Source: a virus
Virus record (IMG/VR): IMGVR_UViG_3300027754_000343
Coordinates: 1-27,940 of that record
DNA: 27,940 nucleotides
Direction: 5' to 3' (one strand)
In this document: piece after piece, positions 7,713 to 24,255 of the stretch
Position numbering within the stretch: position 1 is the stretch's first letter
How the letters are laid out: each line of letters begins with the position of its first letter
Notes under the pieces: model-generated
Told to the model about the DNA's origin: nothing
The model's input: the letters and a program-made list of their open reading frames with translations, nothing else
Databases searched by the model: none
Made by a program: the position numbers and the translations under genes

Positions 7713-8015
7713 ATGAGCACATTTGGAGTCACTTTTATTTCTGGTGGCGGGTACGTTGAATCTGTTGATGTGGAAAAAAAGGCTGAGACTAAACAGCTTT
7801 TGACATCAGACGGCCATCATGGCCAGGCGTATTCTTTCGACACCATTTTTACGTTTAGCGCTCGAGGGAAGGGAGACAACCCCTACACGGCAGGCGCTGG
7901 TGATGCGGGTCTACCCGTAACTGGTGCCTCGTTTATTACGTCCTCAAAGACGACTACAAAAAACGACGACTGGCAGGGATGGGAAATCTCTGGAACAGCT
8001 TACGCGCACGCCTAA
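7713..8015 (+). CDS. Tail-tube-like protein, copy B of a tandem pair
   Basis: This 100-aa protein is the paralogue of the gene just upstream and is separated from it by two bases (TAA TT ATG). It has the same start (MSTFG), the KGD motif (about residue 53), SSK/NDD in the C-terminal third and a TAYA ending. Distinctive features are a Gly-rich loop after the start (ISGGGYVES) and DGHHGQAYSFDTIFTFSARG. One copy may form the tube and the other a cap, initiator or alternating ring, or this could be a recent functional split. The function is inferred from position and fold-like composition. Confidence 0.5.
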   Translation: MSTFGVTFISGGGYVESVDVEKKAETKQLLTSDGHHGQAYSFDTIFTFSARGKGDNPYTAGAGDAGLPVTGASFITSSKTTTKNDDWQGWEISGTAYAHA

Positions 8016-8040: not shown

Positions 8041-8469
8041 ATGGACCAAGGAAAAGCATACACATGGCTCGTAGATGACAAAGATCCCGCTAAAAGCGGA
8101 AACACGGATCTCGTCATGGCATGGCACACAATGGGCGGCAAACTCGCCCCAAGACCTTTTGAAAAGGTTGAGGAAGATGGCAAACCGCGCATAACTTGGG
8201 TTGTTGAAGCATCGACGCCAGCCGACATAAACGGTGACAGCGTTAAATTTGAGGAGTTCAAAAAGCGCTGGGAGGATCTTGAGTGGTGCAAAGCTAACGA
8301 TTGGCACCCAATTGCCATCATGCGCGCGTTCCGAGACAACTGTCGAGACGGCAAACGGTGGGCGCGGGAGCAGGCTACCGGGATCTGTAAAACCAAAGGC
8401 AACTCTCGAATCGTTGTTTATCCGCACTCGCCTACGTGGCTTAAGGAAGAATTTGCCCGCTTTATATGA
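8041..8469 (+). CDS. Uncharacterised tail-region protein
   Basis: I do not recognise this 142-aa protein. It is soluble and charged, with many Trp residues and a helical middle (FEEFKKRWEDLEWCKANDW, about 69-87). A basic segment follows (MRAFRDNCRDGKRWAREQATG), then TKGNSRIVVYPHSPTWLKEEFARF. It lies between the tail-tube pair and the tail chaperone and overlaps the chaperone gene by ATGA. A tail-assembly or tube-associated role is plausible from context only. The leader is TAATATATG without a Shine-Dalgarno. Confidence 0.45.
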   Translation: MDQGKAYTWLVDDKDPAKSGNTDLVMAWHTMGGKLAPRPFEKVEEDGKPRITWVVEASTPADINGDSVKFEEFKKRWEDLEWCKANDWHPIAIMRAFRDNCRDGKRWAREQATGICKTKGNSRIVVYPHSPTWLKEEFARFI

Positions 8470-8810
8470 ACCCATTCTTACTTGCCAGTGAAAAAGTGGG
8501 CGGCATTAAAGTAAGGCCGTTTAGCATCACCACTCAGCTTGCTATTGACGCGCTTTCTGAGTGCAAATTCAACCGCGCAGAGCAGGCCGCATCTTTGCTA
8601 TGGATGCAGATGCGGCCACCGGCAGAAGTTAAACAGGCCATCACTGACGGCACGATTGAAGCTCTGGTGAGAGAGATGGCCGAGCAGATGCCACTGGCCT
8701 ATTTAAAGCCAATCGAAGACTGGGCCGAGCGGCAAAACCAGATGATCATTGAAGGCCGCGTAGATATTATTCCGCGCGACTCCTCGGGAGGGTCCGAGCC
8801 GGGAAACTAG
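8466..8810 (+). CDS. Tail assembly chaperone, unshifted form (gpG-like)
   Basis: This 114-aa protein is the product of normal termination at TAG 8808-8810. It is mainly helical (FSITTQLAIDALSECKFNRAEQAASLLWMQM, in separate helices). It precedes the tape-measure region, where siphophages encode a tail chaperone that coats and folds the tape measure. The last two sense codons and the preceding base form the slippery heptamer GGGAAAC, so a fraction of ribosomes should make the longer fusion described separately. It begins in an ATGA overlap with the previous gene. Confidence 0.75.
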   Translation: MNPFLLASEKVGGIKVRPFSITTQLAIDALSECKFNRAEQAASLLWMQMRPPAEVKQAITDGTIEALVREMAEQMPLAYLKPIEDWAERQNQMIIEGRVDIIPRDSSGGSEPGN

Positions 8811-9049
8811 ATGGGCCGGAGTGGTGCGAAAGTTTCGTAATCACCCTGGCCCGAGAGACTGGATGGACTGAGGAATTTTTGATGCAAGCCCCACTAGCCA
8901 AACTGATGCGGTATTACCACGCGGCGTTGTGGGTCAACGGCGCGTGGACTCGCAAGGCCGCGTCTAAAGACAAGGTGGCAAACGTGGAAGAGATGCTAGC
9001 AAACTTCAAACCAAGCTTTGAGGAGGAAGACGATGGCGAAGTTTATTAG
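8466..9049 (+). CDS. Tail assembly chaperone, -1 frameshift fusion (gpGT-like)
   Basis: The -1 frame is open without interruption from the slippery site to TAG 9047-9049, adding 80 residues for a total of 194. The added part reads LDGPEWCESFVITLA, then RETGWTEEFLMQAPLAKLM, then RYYHAALWVNGAWTRKA. It is a helical domain typical of the downstream segment of siphophage tail chaperones. It has no sensible start of its own, so it is only reachable by slippage. As in lambda gpG/gpGT, the two forms would be made in a fixed ratio, with the fusion recruiting tail-tube subunits to the tape measure. The coordinates span the join; base 8807 is read twice. Confidence 0.85.
8801..8852 (+). promoter_or_regulatory. 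Programmed -1 ribosomal frameshift signal
   Basis: The slippery heptamer G GGA AAC occupies 8801-8807 in the zero frame (X XXY YYZ), directly before a TAG. After a 5-base spacer (8808-8812) comes a three-tier stem-loop. GGGCC (8813-8817) pairs with GGCCC (8848-8852). GGTG (8823-8826) pairs with CACC (8842-8845). CGAA (8827-8830) pairs with TTCG (8834-8837) around an AGT loop. Lambda uses the close relative GGGAAAG at the same place in its tail operon. Slippery site, spacer and structure are all seen directly; efficiency is unknown. Confidence 0.85.
9021..9026 (+). promoter_or_regulatory. Strong Shine-Dalgarno AGGAGG
   Basis: AGGAGG lies 6 bases before ATG 9033 and decides that start over an upstream in-frame TTG at 9018. 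It lies inside the end of the frameshifted chaperone frame. It is one of only two perfect Shine-Dalgarno sequences noticed in the late genes, so this start probably needs no translational coupling. Confidence 0.75.
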
Positions 9050-9803
9050 CACCAACATCCAAGGTTTGGAGACTTTTGCAGATTACCTGAATGCGATCTA
9101 TCTGACCGGCAAACGCTCGATGAAAGAACAGGCATACACACATTTTGGGGGCGTGGTGCGGAATATGTACGCCATCACCTTCCCCATGGGCGGCAAAAAC
9201 CGAAGTGGATCTTTTAAGTTCAACAAAAATGGCGAACGCACCGGATCTGTTGATTTTGCTGGTGGCAAAAAAGCCGGACAAATTGTCATCGCTCGAGATG
9301 TCAACAATGCTTTTATGACGCCAAAAGAAGCCGCGGTCATGCTTTCTGGCGAGCGCATGAGGGCATTTCAAGAGGTTTTTAAAAAGTACCGCAACGAATC
9401 ACCAGAAGCCGCTTTCGTTTGGTATCTTGGAACGCGCAATAAGTTTAAGCATCCAAAGCCAGTCAGAAGGCCAGTGACGGGCCGAAATAAGGCTTTCGTT
9501 TACAAAAAGCTTACAGAGAGACAGGGGACAGTAGCAGCGGGGTGGAACAAGGCAGGCGCATATTTTGGCATCACCGTACCATCTTGGATTTCAAAATGGG
9601 GATCCGCTAACAGCAGTTTGACAGTGCAGGAAAGTGAAAACACTTACAAATTTGTTGCAGTCTGCAGCACGTCGCATCCAAACGCGGCAGAGCTACAAGC
9701 AGACGCTGACAAGGCCATGAACATGCAAAAAGGCAACATGAAGCGCATTCTGTTGAACCTTTTAAAGCAACAAAATAAACGCGGAGGATTTGTCTCAAAA
9801 TGA
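9033..9803 (+). CDS. Uncharacterised minor tail-type protein before the tape measure
   Basis: This 256-aa protein is basic, with no membrane segment, and lies between the tail chaperone and the tape measure. An N-terminal helical region (LETFADYLNAIYLTGKRSMK, then QAYTHFGGVVRNMYAITFP) resembles the 'YL..~kR...Ea.n~~a~~~~~~a~~~tP' pattern of some minor tail/completion proteins. The C-terminus is a Lys-rich helix (MNMQKGNMKRILLNLLKQQ). The ATG follows a perfect AGGAGG, unusual for this genome. It ends in an ATGA overlap with the tape measure. A minor-tail function is inferred; I do not recognise the family with confidence. Confidence 0.5.
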   Translation: MAKFISTNIQGLETFADYLNAIYLTGKRSMKEQAYTHFGGVVRNMYAITFPMGGKNRSGSFKFNKNGERTGSVDFAGGKKAGQIVIARDVNNAFMTPKEAAVMLSGERMRAFQEVFKKYRNESPEAAFVWYLGTRNKFKHPKPVRRPVTGRNKAFVYKKLTERQGTVAAGWNKAGAYFGITVPSWISKWGSANSSLTVQESENTYKFVAVCSTSHPNAAELQADADKAMNMQKGNMKRILLNLLKQQNKRGGFVSK

Positions 9804-11167
9804 GCGACGTAACATTATCTCTGGGCGTCGATGCCTCCCAAATGGAGTCAGGCCTTGGAAGGGCCAAAAGCGCGCTAAAGGGACTGGAATCGCAGGCCAA
9901 TCAAAAGGGCATCTTTGAACGTATTAACAACGACGTCAAAAATCTTGGCGGCACATTTTCAACGCTCAAAGATCAGTTAGCTGGTGGCAACATTGTGGGT
10001 GCACTAGCTACAGTCTCAAGGGCCGGAGTCGGGATGGGATCGTTAGCGCCGCTTTTAGGAGGCGTGGCAATAGCCATGGCTGGGGTAGCAGTGGTGGCTA
10101 GAGGCATGTGGACGGCGATGTCCAGGGCTAAGGAGATGCGCAACACCGCAGAGCAGTCCGGGCTGTTGGTAACAGAGTTGATGCCACTTCAAAAAATCTT
10201 TGGTCAAGTGGGGCTTGAGGCAGAGCAAATCCCGGTGGTGATGACTCAATTGCGTGCATCGCTTGAGACTCTTGGGGATCCAGCATCTAAGGCATCCAAG
10301 GCCTTTGAAAAGATCGGACTTAATGCCGAGTCATTTAAGGGCAAGTCGTACTACGAAGCATTAAAGCTGATTGGCGGTGCTCTTGGCAGCGCTAAAGATA
10401 AAACCGACGCTCTAAACGCCGCAACAGAGGCCTTTGGTGCGAAAAAAGGCGTAAAGGTAGGGCAAGCATTAGCGGGGGCTGATTTTGGCAAAATGGAGGC
10501 ATCTACGCCTGAATCTGCTAAAATCATTCAAGAGCAGGGTGAGATGTTTCAAAAATTTCAGATTGCCATTCAGAATCTCAAACCATCTTTGGATGGTTTA
10601 TTTTTGGGAATGGCATCTGAAATAATCCCGGCGCTGATGGATGCCGCTGCAAAAATTGAAAAGTTAGACTTGGTTGGCATGGGTAAAAGCTTTGGAAAAA
10701 GCATTTCTGAGGGACTGACAAAAGCGCTTGAGCTCAAAGAACGATTGGCATTTGTAATGGCAACACCTGCAGAACGGAAAGAAATGCAGGCTCAAAAGCT
10801 TAAAGAATACGAGGAAGAACGAAAAAGACAGCTTATTCCAGGTTATGCAGAAGCGCAAAAAGCTGCTGAACCTCAGCTTCACAATTATCCGATGCCGTCG
10901 GAAGGACCACAGGCGGCCAGAGGCGCAACTGTCAGCACTGGCGAAGCTAAAGCCCTTAAAATTGAACGTCCTGAATCCTTGATGTCTAGCATTGCCAAAA
11001 TGGGCGGCGGTGCATCGGGCATGGGCGTAGAGAGTCTTAATGTGCAACGCGAGCAGCTTAGTGTGATGCAGCAGATGCTGGCAGCTCTTAGGGCATCAAC
11101 AAACACTCAAGGGAGAGCGTCAATGATAGACATTTACGGAAACTCTGACATTGCCGTCACCGCTTAA
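9800..11167 (+). CDS. Tape measure protein (short)
   Basis: This 455-aa protein begins with a typical tape-measure N-terminus, VTLSLGVDASQMESGLGRAK, where a beta strand leads into helices. It continues with long Ala/Lys-rich helices. A hydrophobic segment (residues about 78-102, GMGSLAPLLGGVAIAMAGVA) may help DNA entry at the membrane. The later part is charged and helical (EMQAQKLKEYEEERKRQL, about 328-345). Tape measures set tail length at roughly 0.15 nm per residue, so this short one suggests a tail near 65-70 nm. It directly follows the chaperone module that would escort it. Confidence 0.8.
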   Translation: MSDVTLSLGVDASQMESGLGRAKSALKGLESQANQKGIFERINNDVKNLGGTFSTLKDQLAGGNIVGALATVSRAGVGMGSLAPLLGGVAIAMAGVAVVARGMWTAMSRAKEMRNTAEQSGLLVTELMPLQKIFGQVGLEAEQIPVVMTQLRASLETLGDPASKASKAFEKIGLNAESFKGKSYYEALKLIGGALGSAKDKTDALNAATEAFGAKKGVKVGQALAGADFGKMEASTPESAKIIQEQGEMFQKFQIAIQNLKPSLDGLFLGMASEIIPALMDAAAKIEKLDLVGMGKSFGKSISEGLTKALELKERLAFVMATPAERKEMQAQKLKEYEEERKRQLIPGYAEAQKAAEPQLHNYPMPSEGPQAARGATVSTGEAKALKIERPESLMSSIAKMGGGASGMGVESLNVQREQLSVMQQMLAALRASTNTQGRASMIDIYGNSDIAVTA

Positions 11168-13570: not shown

Positions 13571-15967
13571 ATGAGTTGTGACTCCAACTGCGGGACTTTG
13601 GTAATTGAGCTTTTGACCGGCGTGCCGGGGATCCCCGGACAATCTACAATGCCTGGACCGCAAGGGCCGCAAGGCGATCAAGGGCCAATTGGGCCACAGG
13701 GACCGCAAGGCATTCAGGGGCCGACTGGCAACACCGGCGCGCAAGGCGTTAAGGGCGACACTGGCGAGCAGGGCATTCAGGGAATCCAGGGCATTCAGGG
13801 GGTCAAAGGCGATACCGGCGCGACTGGATCCAAGGGAGATCAAGGCATCCAAGGTATCAAGGGCGACACCGGCAGTCAGGGCGCAAAGGGCGACACGGGA
13901 GCCAAAGGCGACACTGGTGCTCAGGGTATCCGAGGCATTCAAGGAGAGCAGGGAATTCAAGGCATCCAAGGCCTTAAAGGCGATACTGGGGCCAAGGGAG
14001 ATACCGGAGCGCAAGGGATCCAAGGGATCCAAGGGGAACAGGGTATTCAAGGCATTAAAGGCGACACAGGATCGCAGGGGCCAAAGGGCGATACTGGCGC
14101 AACTGGTGACAAATATGCTGCTGCCTCGAGCACCACTTTAACTTTGGCAATAGGCGCAAAAACATTGACTCTAGCGCCTCTCGGGCTGGCCTATACGCTG
14201 TCACAGCCGGTGATTATTGCAGCCACGGGGGGCACAATGACAGGCACCGTCACTAGCTATTCCCCGACGACTGGGGTAATGGTGGCGCAGATCACCAGTT
14301 TCACAGGCAGCGGATCCGCGAGTGATTGGACGGTTAATCTGTCTGGAGTCGCTGGCGTACAGGGGCCACAGGGGCCACAGGGTGAGCAAGGGCTAAAAGG
14401 CGATACCGGCGCGACTGGCGCGCAAGGCGTTAAAGGCGATACAGGAGCACAGGGAGCCAAAGGTGATAAAGGCGATACCGGCGACCAGGGAATTCAAGGA
14501 ATTCAAGGCATTCAAGGCGTCAAAGGGGATACGGGCGCACAAGGCGCAAAAGGAGACACTGGCAACACTGGCGCAACCGGGCAGGGACTTACAAACAAAG
14601 GCGCGTGGAACTCCGTAGACACTTTTGCTGCCTACGACATTGTGACCTTTGGCGGCAGCTCTTATGTAGCGTTGCAGGCAGTGCCCGCAAACACTCCCAC
14701 ATCAAACACTAGTTACTGGCAGTTGATGGCATCAAAGGGTGACACCGGTGCACAAGGAGTCAAAGGTGATACCGGATCCACTGGGGCCAAAGGGGACCAA
14801 GGAATTCAGGGCATCCAGGGCGAGCAAGGAAACCAAGGCATCCAAGGCATTCAAGGGATTCAGGGCGTCAAAGGCGACCAAGGCAACGTGGGACCGCAAG
14901 GCCCAGAGGGCACCGTCACCACCGTGGCAGGCAGCAGCGTAAGCGCATTCACTGGGGACGGGTCTGCAACGGTATTTGCTACGCTCGACGGCTACAACGG
15001 CACGGACGCAGGCGGGTACCTTGTCAGCGTTGGCGGCATTGACCAGCGCCCGACTACCGACTGGACAATCTCGAGCGCCAACAGCGGCACAATCACGTTT
15101 GCCAGCGCACCACCTAATGGCGCGCCGATTGTCGTTCGCGCGTTTGTGGGCACCGGCACAACCAACGGAAACGCGACGTTGTTACAAGGCCGCGCATTGG
15201 CGGATACTGCGCCGACAAATGGGCAAGCAGTGGTCTGGGATTCGGCAAACTCAACGTGGAAACCCGGCACCGTCTCTGGCGGCGGGAGCGACATTGGAGG
15301 CCGTGCGTGGGACTCTGCTGCGACATATTCCGAGGGAGATTTGGTGGCAACGTCTCAGCGGGAGGCATGGATCTGCATCCAAAATGACAACACAAACCAC
15401 GACCCAACCGAGGCCGAAAGCACATGGTGGGCACCACTGCCCGCTGATGCTGTAAGTTTGCAACTGAGGCCGGTAGCAACAACTGCACCAACAAATGGAC
15501 AAGGATTGGTGTGGGACTCGACAGCAGCAACTTGGGGGCCAAAAAATGTACTACTTAACATAGCCACAGGGTACAGAGCTCTTGCAGTTGGATCTGCAAC
15601 TACAAGCATTGATTCAGTTTTGCTCGGGTACTTAAATAGTTGTGAAAACAGTGGTGTTTCGATTGGAATAGCCACAACAGCATCTGAATATGCGGTTGCA
15701 ATTGGAAATCATTCATCTGCCGGAATTGGTTCTGTTGCAATTAATAGTCCATATGTTAGCGGAGGAAATTCGCTAGGAATTTTAACAGGCACAACAAACG
15801 TTGGTAATCAAGAAATCAGAATTGGAACTCCAAATATCCATTTTGACGTTTTCTTGGGCGCCTATGACATAAAGTCGATGAGTGCAAACCTTGGAAACGC
15901 CATAAACAAAATCAACGAAATCATCACTTGGGCTAACTCCACCGGCGCTAGTATTGCTCCTCTCTAA
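13571..15967 (+). CDS. Collagen-like tail fibre with binding modules
   Basis: This 798-aa fibre has three Gly-X-Y collagen-like blocks at about residues 17-181, 260-338 and 387-448. The repeats are of the [19 protein letters not shown] type, and such blocks form trimeric shafts. Between blocks 2 and 3 lies a 46-residue module like a carbohydrate-binding domain ([20 protein letters not shown], about 345-364). A second similar module is near 577-623 ([13 protein letters not shown] ... [11 protein letters not shown]). Two WDS..~TW.P motifs lie near 554 and 640. Residues about 662-736 carry YadA-head-like repeats ([33 protein letters not shown]). The end is a coiled coil. The protein likely attaches the virion to surface glycans. 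Its 3' part (from about 15545) is clearly more AT-rich, suggesting module exchange. Confidence 0.85.
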
Positions 15968-22148: not shown

Positions 22149-22318
22149 TGGGATCTCGAGTTCAAGGAGCCAGCGGATGCGCCACTAATCGAATTTATCA
22201 CGGTACTCGCATCAAAAACCGTTATCGCACGAAAGCCGAAAAATTGGCAGAAGCAAACGCCCGCGCACAAAAGCAAAGGGGATTAATTGCACGCTGCAGA
22301 GGGGATGTCCAGAAATGA
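22148..22318 (+). CDS. Small basic protein (56 aa)
   Basis: The protein begins MGSRVQGASGCATNRIYHG and continues with a Lys/Arg/Ala-rich helix (TKAEKLAEANARAQKQRG), ending RCRGDVQK. It is coupled on both sides (TAATG and ATGA), which supports it being translated. The high charge suggests nucleic-acid binding. Not recognised. Confidence 0.5.
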   Translation: MGSRVQGASGCATNRIYHGTRIKNRYRTKAEKLAEANARAQKQRGLIARCRGDVQK

Positions 22319-22560
22319 TGCCCACTCCAATACAGGCGCAGACGCTCTGGCTCCATACCGAGGGCTACAGCGCCGCACAGATTGCGGCATCCACGGGCAG
22401 GACACCGGCATCAGTTACGCAGGCTCTGACAGAGGCGCGCAGGGCGGCGACAGCGGTGGGACTGCGGATGGTGGTAATACGGCCAAAAGTAACGGAGGAA
22501 ACGGCGTCTGGGCTGTCCGTTGCACGTTGCCTGGCCAAGGAAGCGGGGCTGCTGCCATGA
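22315..22560 (+). CDS. Small HTH protein
   Basis: This 82-codon-range ORF (81 aa) has a helix-turn-helix of the sigma-70 region 4/transposase type: EGYSAAQIAASTGRTPASVT (about 16-35), then ALTEARRAATA. Such proteins bind DNA as regulators. It has two adjacent ATG codons (22315, 22318) and overlaps both neighbours by ATGA. A longer out-of-frame ORF from 22287 covers the same bases but is Gly-rich and nondescript there, so it was rejected for this stretch. Confidence 0.5.
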   Translation: MMPTPIQAQTLWLHTEGYSAAQIAASTGRTPASVTQALTEARRAATAVGLRMVVIRPKVTEETASGLSVARCLAKEAGLLP

Positions 22561-23156
22561 GACTTCCTGCACAAAAACGACTGGAGCTTCAAGCTGCTTA
22601 CCCGTCCCAGGCCGAGGGCGGTTTTGCTGGCGACCTCCACAAAAGTTTGCGGCAGGCGCTGATACGATGGGAGCAAAAGCGCGGCATCGGCGGTCATTTC
22701 AAGTATGGCACCACTGGAAGCGCTGGAGCATTTCGCAAGGAAAAAACCGGCGCGACTCGAGATGAGATCTCGTGGAACAAAGCGCCAGAAGTAAAACGTG
22801 AGCCAAAAAAGCGCGAGATCCTTACCGAGGAGCAGAGACTCGCAAAGGTGGCGTACAATCGCCAGAGGCGGCAGTCAGAGACGGCAGAGGAGCGCGAGGC
22901 ACGGCTGGAGGCCCGTCGCGCCTGGTATCTTGCCAAGCAGGGCGGCATGTTGCAAAAACGTTTTACAAGGTCGCCAGAGGAGCGCAAGGCCGCAGTAAAA
23001 GCGGCAAAACAACGCTACATTGAGCGGCAAAAGGCCGGGCTAGTGGCAAAAACAATCAGGAAACCAAGCACATCAACGGCAGTACAGTTAGCGCGAAAAG
23101 CAGAGAGAGGCAGAATATATTATGCCAGAAAAAAACAAACTCAGATGGGTAAGTGA
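22557..23156 (+). CDS. Highly charged unknown protein, coiled-coil rich
   Basis: This 199-aa, strongly basic protein starts MRLPAQKRLELQAAYPSQAE in an ATGA overlap. It contains two related helical stretches: LTEEQRLAKVAYNRQRRQSE (about 103-122) and SPEERKAAVKAAKQRYIERQ (about 155-174). Both carry '(t/s).EeR...v~~~~~r~~~~~', suggesting an internal repeat. The end is ARKKQTQMGK. I do not recognise the family. Its position between an HTH gene and an exonuclease suggests DNA or RNA binding. It overlaps the exonuclease start by 35 bases. Confidence 0.5.
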   Translation: MRLPAQKRLELQAAYPSQAEGGFAGDLHKSLRQALIRWEQKRGIGGHFKYGTTGSAGAFRKEKTGATRDEISWNKAPEVKREPKKREILTEEQRLAKVAYNRQRRQSETAEEREARLEARRAWYLAKQGGMLQKRFTRSPEERKAAVKAAKQRYIERQKAGLVAKTIRKPSTSTAVQLARKAERGRIYYARKKQTQMGK

Positions 23157-24255
23157 TTTGAATCGTTTTAAGTTTCAAAAAGACAATCCAGATTATATTC
23201 CTCAGCCTAAAACCGAGTTAGAAAAACAAGAACGTCAAGAAAAAGCATTAAGAGGAAGTCGCATTCATGCATATTTTCAAATCCTCTGGCGTAAACATTA
23301 CGAAATGAATACTGAAACAAGCAACAACATCAGACCATCAGCGCTTCCTAAGCTGGCCCTATGCGGTCAGTTTGAGAGTGCACCAGGTACATCCGACGCA
23401 GCGGCGCGAGGCAGCCGCATTGACGCACTATTCCGGGGCATGTGGGAGACTGGCGAGATCCCCAAAGGTGCAGATGAGGAGGAGGTTGGCGTTGCCTATT
23501 GGGCCGTCAATCAACTAGCTAGGCTGGGCACCAATGGCACGATTACCTGCGAAAAGACCTGCAAAGTCTTTGTGCCGATCCTTCAAAAAATTGGAACCAT
23601 GGACGCGGTGAACCTTGGTGGTCAATGGCTGGCAGACCTCAAGACTGGCCAGATGCACGACTACAAAGCGCAGATGGCAGCCTATGCGCTAGGGTGCATG
23701 GAGCTCACAAAAACAATCGAGTGGAGCACGTACTTAATCTTTGCCGATCAAAAAGAGATTGTTAGGCACTTTTTCTTCAAGGCAGACGCGGCAAAGATTG
23801 TTGGGGACATTATCAACAACGTGGGCACGGATCCAAGGCCGAATGATTATTGCCAGTGGTGTGCAAAATCGCTCACCTGTGCGCCGCGGCTCGAGTCTCA
23901 GCGCCTGGCACTGGCAACCACAGAGGCGCCATCATTTTCGACGGTGCTGGCAGATCCAGACTTGCTGGGAGAGTTTTTGAACCGTGCGAAAGTATTTGAC
24001 GACTTTCGCGAAGCCGCAAAAGACCGCGCTCGGGAGCTCCTCGAGGCAGGCGTGAGAGTACCAGGATGGAGGCTGCAAAAGCCAAGGGTAACGGAGTTAC
24101 TGGACGCGGCAGCGCAGTTAAGCAGCGGGATCCCGTTTGAAAAACTCATCATAGCGCACGGTCCCATCTCTGCCAAAAAGGCACGCGAACTAGGCACCAT
24201 TGACGAGTCATTGGTGGTGCGCAAAGAGTCACGTCCTATTCTTGCACAGCTATGA
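23122..24255 (+). CDS. RecB/Cas4-type PD-(D/E)XK exonuclease with Fe-S cysteines
   Basis: This 377-aa protein shows a RecB-family nuclease core: GTMD (D161), LADLKTG (D172, K174 of the DxK motif) and QMAAYALG (Q184, Y188). Cys81 upstream plus a C244-x2-C247-x5-C253 cluster matches the four-Cys Fe-S signature of AddB/Cas4-type nucleases. It probably resects DNA ends for phage recombination, beside a RuvC-like resolvase and an SSB. The N-terminal 61 residues are AT-rich in their DNA and carry an RGSRIHAYF motif that echoes RGSRIDALF at 96-104, so this could be an added segment. If translation began at ATG 23305, the protein would have 316 aa and a family-like start. ATG 23122 was kept because TATATTATG matches other starts here. 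Confidence 0.75.
   Translation: MPEKNKLRWVSDLNRFKFQKDNPDYIPQPKTELEKQERQEKALRGSRIHAYFQILWRKHYEMNTETSNNIRPSALPKLALCGQFESAPGTSDAAARGSRIDALFRGMWETGEIPKGADEEEVGVAYWAVNQLARLGTNGTITCEKTCKVFVPILQKIGTMDAVNLGGQWLADLKTGQMHDYKAQMAAYALGCMELTKTIEWSTYLIFADQKEIVRHFFFKADAAKIVGDIINNVGTDPRPNDYCQWCAKSLTCAPRLESQRLALATTEAPSFSTVLADPDLLGEFLNRAKVFDDFREAAKDRARELLEAGVRVPGWRLQKPRVTELLDAAAQLSSGIPFEKLIIAHGPISAKKARELGTIDESLVVRKESRPILAQL

Follow-up and report, generated by a model that had tools for sequence, protein, structure and literature searches.

Introduction

Ribosomal slips of this kind are well known in phage lambda and many other phages. In lambda, gpG and gpGT share one start, a -1 slip close to the end of G yields the second product, and the second slippery codon is AAG. 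The two products are made at about 30:1, with G binding the tape measure and T binding the tail subunit (PMC5009743). The gp18/gp19 pair of Burkholderia phage KL1 carries GGGAAAC before the stop and lies one gene before the tape measure (PMC3483164), while the g-t genes of the haloarchaeal viruses HCTV-1 and HCTV-2 have G_GGA_AAC and A_AAA_AAC sites (PMC5009743). Here, we analyzed a 27,940-nt viral DNA (the window; IMG/VR record IMGVR_UViG_3300027754_000343, positions 1 to 27,940), for which a sequence-only reading had proposed a hidden tail-chaperone fusion with lambda gpG/gpGT as precedent, an interpretation that the analysis supported. Judged from sequence, the locus very probably encodes a programmed -1 ribosomal frameshift in a tail-assembly-chaperone gene pair. 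It is best read as a new and divergent addition to the class of frameshifted tail assembly chaperones.

Results

A slippery heptamer ends the G-like gene and is kept in register

The G-like gene (8466–8810, plus strand, as are all features of the locus) has a 0-frame product of 114 amino acids, ends at the TAG 8808–8810, and is kept in relatives. Its last codons read CCG GGA AAC TAG, which places the heptamer G_GGA_AAC (8801–8807) in the slippery register directly 5' of the stop, exactly as first read. As in the gpG/gpGT class, an in-register X_XXY_YYZ sequence is thus found close to the 3' end of the upstream ORF. The window contains 20 in-register heptamers in 7274 codons (about 1 per 360 codons), so that a single-genome case would be suggestive at most, and the significance of GGGAAAC comes from its conservation in relatives rather than from its rarity. 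Two more in-register heptamers, AAAAAAG at 7775 and AAAAAAC at 7958, are located in a short gene two genes upstream (7713–8015) and may be due to chance. An A7C run was also observed at 23129–23136, where the ORFs 22287–23156 and 23122–24255 overlap.

Searches with the fusion, using the patterns NLDGPEW and W[VAS]NGAWT, identified 38 related IMG/VR contigs, which together with Akkermansia phage Moulinsart make 39 relatives. The slip site lies outside the second pattern, and the first places no constraint on the last base of AAC/AAT. The contig fusions form 13 clusters at 60% identity. In all 38 contigs, a single alignment column holds an in-register GGGAAAC, AAAAAAC, or CCCAAAC, and Moulinsart has AAAAAAC TAG there with T in the -1 frame, giving XXXAAAC at one position in 39/39 relatives. 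The heptamer is kept in register although the encoded residue and the position of the 0-frame stop change. This stop follows at once in many relatives and after as many as 11 codons in others, indicating that conservation of the heptamer does not depend on the stop. Just 5' of the heptamer, nearly all sequences have a Pro codon, and the third base at this codon, a synonymous position, always equals X and tracks the heptamer (CCG GGA, CCA AAA, CCC CCA). For the residues encoded, codon usage in these genes gives a heptamer a chance of 0.02 to 0.10 per lineage. The second slippery codon is always AAC, never AAG or AAA (40/40 sequences). The refuting condition set by the first reading, loss of the -1 frame among relatives, did not occur: an open -1 frame is retained in register, together with the slippery site, in 39/39.

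Among phage records, searches at the DNA and protein levels matched nothing to G and only Moulinsart to T, and genome scans yielded no prophage relative; the single match from these scans, in Loktanella, was rejected as an unrelated protein sharing the string WSNGAWT. No such heptamer was seen in the inspected corresponding region of Verrucomicrobia phage P8625, the closest phage in terminase and portal.

A conserved stem-loop follows the slippery site

Downstream of the heptamer, a 5-nt spacer containing the 0-frame TAG (8808–8812) is followed by a stem-loop of 17 bp in three tiers (8813–8852), a candidate stimulator supported by folding, covariation, and a synonymous-codon control. Folding reproduced the previously proposed spacer and three-tier stem-loop at the exact coordinates. 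The 40-nt hairpin has an energy of -24.7 kcal/mol (z of -3.2 versus dinucleotide shuffles), and 0/200 shuffles were as stable. In a 121-nt context, the same hairpin persists with an ordinary total energy (z of -0.96). A downstream stimulatory RNA structure, which is common but not universal in the class, is thereby present.

The stem alignment is gap-free and comprises 34 distinct sequences. In the core stem (columns 14–25 with 40–51), 82% of cells are paired versus 27–45% when one side is slid. The covariation score of the core stem exceeds those of all 500 shuffles, with examples such as G-C to C-G at columns 14/51 and A-U to U-A at columns 25/40; since the sequences are related, shuffle counts are not probabilities, and the argument for the structure is carried by the synonymous-codon test together with the number of diverged clusters. 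In this test (300 randomizations per sequence, with the T-frame protein kept), the native fold was more stable than the randomized ones (p < 0.05) in 38/40 sequences, with a mean z of -3.6. The third codon of T is GGG, CGG, GCG, AAG, or AGG in 39/39 contigs, the residue varying while the third-position G is constant, and this G pairs in the stem. RNAalifold over the whole family gave no single consensus structure because the upper stem differs between clades.

The SD-like element GGGAGGG (8786–8792) is located 8 nt 5' of the heptamer, forms a duplex of -10.8 kcal/mol with the anti-SD, and is a candidate extra stimulator of the dnaX type. It is found in the clade of the window and is not kept across the family, and it may possibly add to frameshift stimulation in this clade only.

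The -1 frame encodes a T-like domain under coding selection

Slippage would join the T-like domain (8807–9049) to G. The -1 frame then begins L-D-G-P-E-W and encodes LDGPEWCESFVITLARETGW... over 80 residues before TAG 9047–9049, making a G-T fusion of 194 amino acids. T ends inside the next gene, which starts at ATG 9033; the earlier claim of 80 open codons ending within that gene was therefore accurate. The invariant T residues begin directly after the slip (L1 and P4). In pairwise comparisons of the T frame, dN is far below dS, a pattern indicating that this frame is under purifying selection; the -1 ORF is accordingly both conserved and under coding selection. Over the stem-loop codons, dS is lower than further downstream in 8/8 computable pairs, and 4 more pairs are saturated downstream.

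Gene order and predicted structure point to probable tail assembly chaperones

Upstream of G lie genes for the terminase (GpA_ATPase), a portal (lambda-family Phage_portal_2), a Peptidase S49 protease, and the major head protein. The terminase, portal, and protease families show that the description of the sequence as otherwise unlike lambda was too strong. Downstream, a gene of 256 amino acids (9033–9803), overlapping the end of T by 17 nt, separates T from a probable tape-measure protein of 455 amino acids (9800–11167). The module order, namely head genes, G/T, one gene, and the probable tape measure, fits the gpG/gpGT position between head or tail-shaft genes and the tape measure, the tape-measure assignment being a weak match (phrog_9483, tail length tape measure, E of 2e-05). 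The flanking gene order is kept in the contigs wherever the sequence extends. A collagen-repeat tail fibre of 798 amino acids is also encoded at 13571–15967.

Pfam and PHROG scans with G and T of all members returned chance-level hits and no family match, for chaperones or otherwise. G is predicted with good confidence to be helix-rich (pLDDT of 82, pTM of 0.71), and its size is typical. Comparison with PDB chains ranked 2ob9, the HK97 tail assembly chaperone, second (Z of 3.6, 78 residues, rmsd of 4.8), a weak match outranked by a designed retroaldolase. The predicted resemblance of G to the HK97 tail chaperone fold is suggestive and falls short of proof. No profile match was found between G and HK97. 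The T model is a small helical domain (pTM of 0.47) whose structure searches returned nothing useful, and hhalign of T against HK97 T gave a short, weak alignment (E of 0.051). The tail-chaperone claim thus stands on position, the lambda-like module order, and the weak HK97 fold match rather than on sequence homology. A real -1 frameshift fusion whose products serve another tail or virion role would agree with the lack of sequence homology to named chaperones and with the weakness of the tape-measure match. We consider this role unlikely, as the locus lies one gene before the probable tape measure, as in HK97 and KL1 (PMC3483164), and G is a helix-rich protein of typical size with a weak fold match to 2ob9.

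The closest isolate in terminase and portal is Verrucomicrobia phage P8625, and the closest isolate match of T is Akkermansia phage Moulinsart. A host in the Verrucomicrobiota is the likeliest inference, at low identities of 23–30%.

Internal initiation and other readings of the T frame

T could instead be a separate gene translated by internal initiation, with the heptamer being incidental. An ATG at 8882 inside the -1 frame does have the SD-like GAGG 8 nt upstream, so the statement that T lacks a start of its own needs a small correction, and in Moulinsart T is annotated as an independent CDS with a separate start. Most relatives lack the start seen in the window and carry L, T, K, or R around this position. 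Initiation at 8882 would also lose the first 25 residues of T, the best conserved in the clade, and would leave the 39/39 heptamers and the stem-loop unexplained. Internal initiation is therefore very improbable compared with a frameshift fusion. The Moulinsart record (ON453896.1, 10632–11332) lists two hypothetical proteins in place of the fusion, T having its own start; such a fusion is overlooked or divided by automated gene callers.

Stop readthrough is excluded because T lies in the -1 frame, and the predominance of GGGAAAC and CCCAAAC sites makes transcriptional slippage unlikely. A sequencing error or decayed gene, conceivable for a single metagenomic contig, is refuted by comparison and has a negligible probability, because 38 other contigs and a complete phage genome show this frame relation and the T frame is under purifying selection.

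Discussion

By programmed frameshifting, most ribosomes would translate G (114 amino acids) and stop at TAG 8808, while a minority would pause at the stem-loop 8813–8852. On these ribosomes, both tRNAs would slip from GGA AAC to GGG AAA, and translation would continue in the -1 frame to give the 194-amino-acid G-T fusion. By analogy with lambda, many copies of G may coat the tape-measure protein and a few copies of G-T may recruit major tail subunits. We infer slippage itself, its efficiency, and the chaperone role; the observations beneath them are the site, its register and conservation, the covariation, the selection on the -1 frame, and the gene context.

The unusual detail of the family is its exclusive use of AAC as the second slippery codon. 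Tentatively, a whole phage family, probably infecting Verrucomicrobiota, may use only X_XXA_AAC sites, which would imply that the host tRNA-Asn slips efficiently on AAC, a reading that we regard as possible though doubtful. If true, tRNA-Asn of these hosts would differ in this respect from that of E. coli (PMC5009743). The family-wide choice of AAC, not AAG, offers a hint on tRNA slippage outside the E. coli model. With this locus, the frameshifted tail chaperones gain an unannotated family that is deeply diverged and for which comparison gives strong proof of the recoding signal.

Comparison with known systems

Like lambda gpG/gpGT, the locus has a short G and a T fusion upstream of the tape measure (PMC5009743), and its module contains terminase, portal, and protease families of the lambda type. 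It differs from lambda in the AAC codon, in the gene between T and the tape measure, and in having no protein similarity detectable in Pfam/PHROG scans. In HK97, a -1 frameshift is likewise annotated with a single gene intervening before the tape measure, and the predicted G fold weakly matches the HK97 chaperone (2OB9), but the HK97 heptamer is GGGAAAA. The complete genome of Moulinsart (ON453896) has AAAAAAC-TAG and, in the -1 frame, a T domain with 30% identity to that of the window, located 5' of an annotated tape measure, whereas its hairpin is placed differently and more genes precede the tape measure. HCTV-1 and HCTV-2 belong to the same AAC class, although their hosts are archaeal. KL1 shares the identical heptamer directly before the stop, the -1 shift, and a single gene separating T from the tape measure, while its G has no detectable sequence relation, its T is longer and dissimilar, and its downstream structure is weaker. 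As the KL1 GGGAAAC and the haloarchaeal AAC sites have already been described, the mechanism is known, and the present locus represents a new, divergent member.
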